Origin: Kofleriaceae bacterium
GTDB taxonomy: Bacteria > Myxococcota_A > Polyangia > Haliangiales > Haliangiaceae
DNA: 59,093 nt
Direction: 5' to 3'
Assembly (NCBI GenBank): GCA_018057825.1
Contig: JAGPCY010000044.1
Location: 11,853 to 70,945, forward strand
Shown here: one piece after another, positions 40,575-57,748 of the stretch
Numbering within the stretch: the first letter of the stretch is position 1
Layout of the letters: the number at the start of each line of letters is the position of its first letter
Made by a program: the position numbers and the translations under genes
Notes under the pieces: generated by a model
The model's input: only the letters and a program-made list of their open reading frames with translations
Told to the model about the DNA's origin: nothing
Database searches by the model: none

Positions 40575-40765
<191 letters not shown>

Positions 40766-49798: not shown

Positions 49799-51117
<1,319 letters not shown>

Positions 51118-51121
<4 letters not shown>

Positions 51122-51299
51122 AGCACCGAACGGTTTGAGATGCCTGCTGCGACGCGGCCGTGCGGGCACCTCCGAGCGTACGTCCGATGCTCGCTCGTCG
51201 TGTAGTTGACTACACTCCTCCCTGCGCTTCGGGCGTGCGCCCGGATCTGCCTCACACGTCCGCGTCTCGCGACGGCATTCAAACCGTTCGGTGCTCTAG
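51118..51299. mobile_element. 182-bp palindromic foldback element (MITE-like) seated in the bkdB stop codon
   Basis: CTAGAGCACCGAACGGTTTGA at 51118-51138 is repeated perfectly in inverted orientation at 51279-51299 (21 bp). The symmetry continues inward: after one unpaired base both arms read ATGCC, and the next 60 bases match at roughly three positions in four. At the centre is GTGTAGTTGACTACAC (51200-51215), whose midpoint is within 1 bp of the element midpoint. Removing the element with one TA copy leaves an intact TAG stop, as expected for insertion at a TA target. It encodes no protein. It could be a foldback transposon derivative or a long RNA hairpin acting as 3' end of the bkd mRNA. 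Confidence 0.75.
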
Positions 51300-51370
51300 C
51301 CCACCGAACGGGCTCCCCGCCCCCTGAACGCCGCCGGCGGCCCCGCCCGCGTCTCCGTTTCCGGTTCGCC

Positions 51371-51618
51371 CTCGGCCTCGGTCTCCGTTTCGGGTTCGGG
51401 TTCGGGTTCGGGTTCGGGTTCGGGTTCGGGTTCGGGTTCGGGTTCGGCTCGGGTTCGGGTTCGGCCTCGGTTCGGCCTCGGTCTCGGGTTCGGGTTCGGT
51501 CTCGGCCTCGGTCTCGGGTTCGGGTTCGGGATCGGGTTCGGGATCGGGTTCGGGATCGGGTTCGGGATCGGGTTCGGGATCGGGTTCGGGATCGGGTTCG
51601 GCCTCGGTCTCGGCCTCG
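51371..51618. repeat. Hexanucleotide array (TTCGGG/CTCGGY)n
   Basis: About 41 units. The left part is mostly GGTTCG, the middle mixes TTCGGC and CTCGGT, and the right part is a 12-bp super-repeat (GGTTCGGGATCG) repeated about six times. It lies between bkdB and the AbiE pair and is open in all frames, so predicted proteins from it are artefacts. Confidence 0.9.
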
Positions 51619-51654: not shown

Positions 51655-51712
51655 GGGCGTGATACGAATCGCATGTCCCCCTTTCTTCCCGCCAACGTTC
51701 CGTATCATGCCC
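51655..51712 (+). promoter_or_regulatory. Inverted-repeat operator at the abiEi start
   Basis: GGGCGTGATACGAA (51655-51668) and TTCCGTATCATGCCC (51698-51712) are inverted copies with one substitution and one extra base, 29 bp apart. The right arm contains the ATG of abiEi. Known AbiEi antitoxins bind inverted repeats in their own promoter and repress cooperatively; this dyad fits that role. Confidence 0.65.
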
Positions 51713-52315
51713 ACCGCGGCCCCGACAAAGACCACCACGCTCCTCCGGCTCGCCCGGAAAGGGCCGGTGCGCGCTCGGGACCTGGACGCCGCCGCCATCC
51801 CGCGGGCCTACCTCAAGCGGCTCTGCGATCGCGGCCTGCTCGAGCAGGTGGACCGTGGCCTGTACCGGCGCACCGACGCGCCCCTGACCGAGCTGAGCTC
51901 GCTTGCTGACGTGAGCAAGCGCGTCCCGCACGCGGTCATCAGCCTGCTCAGCGCGCTCCAGGTCCACGGGCTGACGAGCGAGGCCCCGCACGCAGTGTGG
52001 GTGCTCATCGACCGGCACGCGCGCATGCCGAAGGTCACCTCGCCTACCCTTGAGGTCGTGCGTGCGAGCGGGGACGCACTGGAGCATGGCGTCGAGGCCC
52101 GGGTCATCGACGGCGTGAAGGTGAAGCTCACGACGCCCGCCAAGACCGTCGCCGACTGTTTCCGCTTCCGCCGGCATGTCGGGCTCGAGGTCGCGCTCGC
52201 GGCGCTCAGGGACTACCTGCGAAAGCGCAAAGGCAGCATCGACGCGCTGGTCGAAGCCGCCCGCGCCGATCGCATCTACACGTTCATGCGGCCATACCTG
52301 GAGGCGCTCGCATGA
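51707..52315 (+). CDS. abiEi: Type IV antitoxin AbiEi
   Basis: A 202-residue antitoxin and autorepressor. An N-terminal winged helix ([21 protein letters not shown]...[21 protein letters not shown]) is followed by the AbiEi C-terminal domain ([38 protein letters not shown]). The ATG at 51707 lies in the operator arm; an in-frame GTG or ATG upstream would start before the dyad and is less likely. The stop overlaps the toxin start (ATGA). The pair aborts phage infection or stabilises mobile DNA. Confidence 0.9.
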
Positions 52316-53226
52316 CGAAGACGCCACCCAAGGACATCGGCGCGTCGGTGCGCGCACGCCTGCTCCGCGTCGCCCGCGATCAGGGCGAGGACTTCCAGCT
52401 CGTCCTCATGCGCTATGCGAACGAGCGCTTGCTCTTTCGGCTCGCGTCGTCGAGGTACGCCGAGCGGTTCGTGTTGAAGGGAGCGGCGCTGTTCACGCTC
52501 TGGACTGGCAAGCCGCATCGAGCGACCCGCGACCTCGACCTGCTCGGCTTCGGCGACCCAGGCGTGGACCACATGCGCGGAGTCTTCTCCGAGGTGCTCA
52601 CGCTCGACGTGCCGGACGACGGAGTGCGATTCGACCTCGAGTCCCTCACGGTCGGCCTCATCCGCGAGGAGCAGGAATACGGCGGCGTTCGGGTCGAACA
52701 CGTCGCCCGCCTCACGAACGCGCAGGTGCGCTTGCAGGTCGACGTGGGCTTCGGCGATGCGATCACGCCGGAGCCAAGCGTCGTGGAGTTTCCGCCGTTG
52801 CTCGACTTCCCGGCACCAAGGCTGCGGGCGTACCCGCGCGAGACCGTCGTCGCCGAGAAGCTCGAGGCGATGGTGCAACTCGGCATGGCCAACAGCCGGA
52901 TGAAGGACTTCTACGACGTCGCCGTGCTCGCGCGGGACTTCGACTTCGACGGTGTGGTACTCGCCCGCGCGATTCGCGCGACCTTCGAACGCCGGAAGAC
53001 CGCGCTGCCGACCGCGATGCCGGCTGCGCTTACCAACGCTTTCGCGGAGGACCCGGCGAAGAGGACACAGTGGTCCGGCTTCGTGCGCAAAGCCGGTGTC
53101 CGCGAAGCCGGTGCCCTCGCTGAGACGATCGCAGCGGTACGAGCATTCGTCGACATGCCGCTCGCCTCGGCCGCAAGTGGCACACCCGCGCCAGGGACAT
53201 GGCGAGCGGGCGTGGGCTGGAGGTGA
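52312..53226 (+). CDS. abiEii: AbiEii nucleotidyltransferase toxin
   Basis: A 304-residue DUF1814/AbiEii-family nucleotidyltransferase. Motif I is [10 protein letters not shown] followed by the metal site [11 protein letters not shown] (DxD). The later conserved block is [15 protein letters not shown] with [17 protein letters not shown]. Such toxins transfer nucleotides to target RNA such as tRNA. The last 20 residues ([15 protein letters not shown]) are unlike the family and are encoded by a short sequence that recurs near 53946, so the natural end may have been altered. It overlaps abiEi by 4 bp. Confidence 0.9.
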
Positions 53227-57441: not shown

Positions 57442-57589
57442 GAGAATCTCGGGGTCAGCAAGAATCGCTTCAACACGTCGCGCGAGCTTCACGGGCACAT
57501 CTTCACAGTGGATCATGCGCGATATCGACTCCAGCGTGGGCGTGCAACGCACGGACGTAGTCGTCATGTAGCACGCCCTGCAGACATCG
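57441..57589 (-). pseudogene. Truncated 5' copy of the gene at 54814-56016
   Basis: 149 bp match 55890-56038 with six differences by eye, covering the start codon (57567), about 42 codons and 22 bp upstream. It then runs into the REP hairpin on the 3' side and the hexamer array on the 5' side. The open frame continues into unrelated sequence, so the product would not be functional. Confidence 0.85.
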
Positions 57590-57748
57590 GTCTCGGGTTC
57601 GGCCTCGGTCTCGGTCTCGGTCTCGGGTTCGGCCTCGGGTTCGGTCTCCGCCTCCGCCTCCGCCTCGGTCTCAGTCTCGGTCTCGGGTTCGGTCTCGGTC
57701 TCGTCTCGGTCTCGGGTTCGGTCTCGGTCTCGTCTCGGGTTCGGTCGG
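57590..57748. repeat. Hexanucleotide array (TCGGTC/TTCGGG/CTCCGC)n
   Basis: Third array of the same family as those at 40575 and 51371, about 26 units, with two short slips (TCGTCTCGG). Confidence 0.88.

Follow-up and report, generated by a model that had tools for sequence, protein, structure and literature searches.

A palindromic element in the bkdB stop codon

Why does a long palindrome begin exactly in the stop codon of a gene? The question arises at the end of bkdB, the gene of a dihydrolipoyl acyltransferase, in a stretch of 59,093 nucleotides from a Kofleriaceae bacterium that was analysed as a whole and is called the window here. The bkdB frame (49799-51121, forward strand) closes at the TAG within a CTAG word, and this CTAG (51118-51121) is also the left end of a 182-bp element (51118-51299, forward strand, CTAG words at both ends included). 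In all probability the element is a MITE, a DNA transposon of the non-autonomous kind, whose terminal repeats are those of IS1182-family insertion sequences.

The terminal inverted repeats, CTAGAGCACCGAACGGTTTGA, are exact over 21 bp including CTAG, the left one at 51118-51138 (forward strand) and the right one at 51279-51299 (reverse strand). Scanning the whole window for exact 21-bp inverted repeats with arms at most 300 bp apart returned this pair as the sole case. The predicted fold of the whole element has an energy of -117.9 kcal/mol, with z = -11.4 against dinucleotide shuffles, so the palindrome is not due to chance. On both counts the foldback with perfect terminal repeats that an earlier note had described is real. 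The 16-bp palindrome placed by the same note at the midpoint turned out to be imperfect: the central hairpin GTGTAGTTGACTACAC (51200-51215), found in the inverted-repeat scan, consists of 7-bp arms around TG, and 14 of its 16 positions are self-complementary. Most of the interior (51140-51277, forward strand) belongs to a quasi-palindromic conserved core, described by a covariance model (R1) and common to elements with other terminal repeats. No transposase gene lies inside the element, whose length is below the 500 bp taken as the upper size of a MITE.

In relatives with a readable 3' end, the bkdB orthologues finish at the same last residue (...MFMEMV/I*) and the element is absent. The stop codon is formed by the left end of the element with the protein unaltered, as had been proposed. 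The DNA downstream of bkdB is not alignable between species. In the window, an AbiEi/AbiEii type IV toxin-antitoxin-like gene pair (PF13338, PF08843) occupies 51701-53226, just 3' of the element.

Copies in the same genome and in relatives

The element's own genome, an 8.9-Mb draft, gives 68 BLAST matches to it: about 20 are nearly complete, with 90-99% identity, and many are truncated. An 18-bp terminal sequence, searched with up to three mismatches, occurs there at 78 places, against 2 for a reversed control pattern. The element is also multicopy in four related genomes (G003, G005, G010 and G011), with copies in three more (G004, G015 and G021). Those genomes carrying the terminal sequence that have a name are Kofleriaceae or unclassified deltaproteobacterial metagenome-assembled genomes. 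In the Zod_Metabat.169 contig, the terminal repeat lies at the contig end, followed by MDFEPTKE; the contigs are short. The BLASTN search for several dispersed copies that the earlier note had suggested is therefore positive, both in the own genome and in relatives. Together with the IS-type terminal repeats and the absence from the same site in relatives, these dispersed paralogues bear out its reading as a mobile element of the MITE kind.

About one third of the own-genome copies sit within larger composite repeats, and these may have been duplicated passively. At L003-L006 and L007 (G000 C51, C46, C29 and C20), the palindrome lies within a repeat of about 450 bp (GGCGTGGATCCGGTGATGACTCCGGAG...) with hexamer arrays at its flanks; one L003 unit of this repeat is without the palindrome. 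A second composite repeat (L009-L013, L016, L017, L019 and L020) holds the palindrome between GGAACGTTTTGGGAGGGGGCC and CGCGAATGCTGGGGGAGGGTTTTG. Hexamer arrays, (CTCGGT/TTCGGG)n, are found in the window at 40575-40761, 51389-51601 and 57587-57746. Of 33 own-genome copies, 11 have such an array no more than 150 bp away, and among 18 truncated copies 4 end abruptly at an array. The link between element and array may be indirect, both favouring intergenic DNA.

Ends shared with IS1182-family elements

Across the class, the ends of 1.74-1.79-kb IS1182-family elements differ from the terminal repeat by 1-5 mismatches in 21, and the repeat is present in 105 of 290 genomes of the class, with a control near zero. 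In G063 (L207), a pair of terminal repeats 1785 bp apart encloses the gene of an IS1182-family transposase of 538 aa (NCBIfam NF033551, E=3.8e-91, 306 bits, cut-off 270). Other genomes contain more IS1182 copies, 1736-1778 bp long, whose ends match too and show CTAG at nearly all extremes. The window's own family contributes a decayed copy of 1749 bp (G040, L243), whose ends match.

Since its ends match the terminal repeats of complete IS1182-family elements, the 182-bp element is very probably a MITE moved in trans by an IS1182-type transposase. No IS1182-like transposase at E<1e-20 was detected in the own genome, a draft assembly, or its genus, with only a few candidates scored per genome, and we therefore infer the transposase source of the own-genome copies. 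The same ends, with other interiors, recur in many further MITEs of 76-371 bp in the class. Examples in families f7 and f8 (L208-L226) span this size range with IS1182-type ends and different interiors; one of 163 bp occurs in several f7 genomes.

CTAG as the probable target

When full copies are aligned, CTAG or a near variant stands at most starts and ends, and the flanks further out differ. Most copies have CTAG at one or both ends; several have a non-CTAG word at a single end, which is explained as decay. Of the expected TA duplications, a repeated word at the ends was indeed found, but this word is CTAG at both ends, and many copies have one end mutated. The target is probably CTAG, not simply TA. 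In the bkdB copy, the left CTAG (51118-51121) is the target word according to the bkdB frame, the orthologue ends and the copy alignment. The right one (51296-51299) is presumably the target duplication; the copy alignment points to this, and the ends of IS1182 relatives also start with CTAG. As the target is palindromic, a 2-bp and a 4-bp duplication look the same in this copy. A larger repeat in L003 has versions with and without the palindrome. The empty junction reads ...ACCTAGCGGG and contains CTAG, and small indels at both joints make the filled and empty pair imperfect.

Among 79 unique copies, 28 copy ends (17 left and 11 right, orientation fixed) fall on the stop codon of a gene whose reading direction leads into the element. 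The own genome has about six times fewer CTAG words than expected (61 observed, 352 expected), and background CTAG sites there are stop codons in 9 of 36 classified cases. The exact insertion in the bkdB stop follows from a target that is this rare and often spells C-TAG stops. The stop-codon position is explained by CTAG targeting and the loss of gene-breaking insertions; no preference for stops is needed.

The following course of events would account for the locus. An IS1182-type transposase would act in trans on the terminal repeats and insert the element at CTAG, duplicating this word. With CTAG scarce and many remaining sites being C-TAG stops, neutral insertions would often lie exactly on stops and leave the upstream protein unaltered. 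After insertion, copies would decay by deletions within the palindrome. Where an old copy is bordered by CTAG, a second copy could end up sharing this word, and the small adjoining hairpin would result.

Internal deletions and the adjoining hairpin

The own genome presents a series of internally deleted copies of 127, 62, 57, 56, 55 and about 25 bp. The mini copies of 55-62 bp are joined at GCGACG, the direct repeat flanking the core; in the window, the left edge of this deletion corresponds to 51149-51154 and the right edge to 51269-51274.

Directly after the element, the flank CTAGCCCACCGAACGGGCT is present as described earlier, and its best reading is that of a tandem relic with an internal deletion. 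The relic (51300-51316, forward strand; CCCACCGAACGGGCTCC) would derive from a second, tandem copy sharing the right CTAG, to judge from the right flank of L124 and the mini copies L317 and L325. At L124, a CTAG-like word is shared between a full copy and the deleted copy, about 45 bp long, that comes after it. Because a full and a deleted copy meet there across a shared word, the window's CTAGCCCACCGAACGGGCTCC is likewise taken as the probable relic of a second copy.

A conserved core with differing arms

The copies of G004, G015 and G021 keep the interior (about 73-82% identity), and their arms are different yet self-complementary. An 883-bp IS5-family element in G003, and its relatives in G015 and G037, have ends that the G004 arms (CTAGAGCGCATCTCaATAACC) match. 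The IS5-type partner families PF13340 and PF01609 have no match in the own genome; the search with them led to this IS of G003 (L142), whose ends, CTAGAGCGCGTCYCATAACCC, match the G004-type MITE arms. It occupies L142:1397-2279 (G003 C126) and has two frames of 164 and 221 codons, possibly through a frameshift.

Searching with the covariance model of the core brought up related elements in several groups. Those of family f18 have IS1182-type ends; f2 (G022) gave 17 matches, with ends TAGGAGGCTGTTGCGCATAG; the elements in G003 carry CTAGCACTACTGCGTCAGG at their ends; and those of f22 (G122 and G127) have copy-specific arms. These distant matches have E values of about 1e-8 to 1e-3 per genome under a roughly calibrated model. 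The f22 relatives mostly start no more than about 15 bp from a stop codon or a tRNA-Ser 3' end, on the same strand. At L267 and L287 (G122 and G127, of two genera), core-like hairpins lie directly 3' of tRNA-Ser(CGA), and their stem sequences differ.

As far as sequence comparison can tell, the deeply conserved part of the element is its interior, not its terminal repeats. MITEs that bear the same core appear to have ends of the IS1182 type, of the IS5 type and of at least two more types; the core also appears to occur in the f22 hairpins downstream of genes and tRNAs. We tentatively suggest that a palindromic core of about 90-135 bp persists across the class and that the outer, transposase-recognised arms are replaced around it; the core would be a module, or would have a function at gene 3' ends.

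It seems rather unlikely that the core is a separate genetic unit, inserting into palindromic carriers or exchanged between them, with the IS1182-type ends only as its present vehicle. Unrelated arm types do surround the same core: IS1182 in the window and f18, IS5 matching the L142 IS in G004, CACTACTGC in L283 and L110, AGGAGGCTGTTGCGCATAG in G022 and copy-specific arms in f22. The core-less mini copies also join exactly at GCGACG, the direct repeat flanking the core, but deletion by slippage, from one short direct repeat of a palindrome to the other, explains them equally well. Moreover, no recombinase is linked to the core, and terminal repeats could have been replaced during the descent of one MITE lineage.

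DNA element or structured RNA

A second possibility raised in the earlier note was a 3' structure protecting the bkd mRNA. In its general form, this reading holds that the hairpin is selected as a terminator or stabiliser at mRNA 3' ends and that its dispersion is secondary. The 28 copy ends placed exactly at gene stops fit it, as do the f22 core relatives, which lie directly downstream of genes or tRNA-Ser in a biased orientation, mostly one direction. In the window's clade, however, the orientation relative to the abutted gene is not clearly biased (17:11), and in 25 of 31 diverse cores the reverse strand reaches an equal or better fold. The bkdB orthologues of relatives lack the element, a search of Rfam returned no family matching it, and no T run follows the hairpin. 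Double changes are seen in 28 of 56 predicted pairs of the stem, but the terminal repeats of a transposon have to match each other anyway, and the same covariation is expected of them.

Strand-specific RNA selection was considered separately. Conserved T.G pairs were suggestive (129 GU against 27 AC cells) in a structure that itself came from RNA folding of that strand; the idea was dropped on the equal or better reverse-strand folds of the 25 cores. A structured RNA is thus an improbable account of the element, and the protected 3' end proposed for bkd finds no support. Our conclusion is that of a DNA element; copies in f22 may differ in nature, and the hairpin may incidentally affect the bkd transcript.

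Two other mobile-element readings are highly improbable. A REP/BIME-type palindrome moved by a RAYT (Y1 HUH transposase) would likewise be extragenic, palindromic and clustered in places (C46, C80), but Y1_Tnp (PF01797) and with it a RAYT is absent from the own genome searched, the 21-bp terminal repeats match DDE-type IS ends, and the element is longer, at 182 bp. A TA-target MITE of an IS630/Tc1 (DDE_3) element would agree with the TA at both ends, but DDE_3 (PF13358) has no match in the own genome searched, CTAG is the word in common and the ends agree with those of IS1182 elements. An integron attC site was also considered; the copies are dispersed and no cassette array was seen.

Relation to known elements

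The closest counterparts of the MITE are the IS1182-family insertion sequences themselves (here the 1785-bp element of G063; in the literature, ISPse1 and IS1272). In the elements compared here, the terminal repeats, 21 bp long with CTAG counted in, differ from its own by 1-5 mismatches, and CTAG stands at the flanks. Contrary to them, it has no transposase gene and measures 182 bp instead of about 1.75 kb; we noticed no interior similarity beyond the ends. ISPse1, a trapped IS1182 element, is reported to have a direct repeat of 4 bp (PMC3281130). Stem-loops are replaced by IS1272, with no duplication of the target (PMC5678879), unlike what the bkdB site shows.

MITEPsy1 of Pseudomonas syringae, a 100-nt, IS5-like MITE, duplicates CTAG or YTAA (PMC3189936). 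It resembles the window's element as a short, non-autonomous element with IS terminal repeats and a CTAG-type target, the duplication being that of MITEPsy1. It belongs to another IS group, and no sequence relationship is claimed; MITEPsy1 was caught moving, whereas the element described here is known from sequence.

ERIC and RU elements and the Rickettsia palindromic elements are dispersed quasi-palindromes of about 100-180 bp. They are alike by description, in size and as dispersed quasi-palindromes; the window's element has an identified matching IS family. Prokaryotic MITEs are reviewed in PMC10969869.

Searching the literature for IS1182 with CTAG or for myxobacterial MITEs, we found nothing that describes this element family. 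Altogether, we regard it as an undescribed family with an ordinary mechanism, that of a MITE, and an unusual conserved core. An eye-catching palindrome on a stop codon is explained by a MITE whose scarce target, CTAG, is often a stop. A widespread myxobacterial MITE set, undescribed in the literature searched, is now tied to IS1182 elements; copies of this kind can be misannotated as terminators or riboswitch-like RNAs. What the analysis exposes is the puzzle of a conserved palindromic core with differing transposase ends, which is open to comparative genomics. If the core does persist while its arms are replaced, the inside of the element would be conserved, the reverse of the usual MITE pattern, and the core would insert into or recombine with palindromes, or be selected for a function at gene 3' ends.
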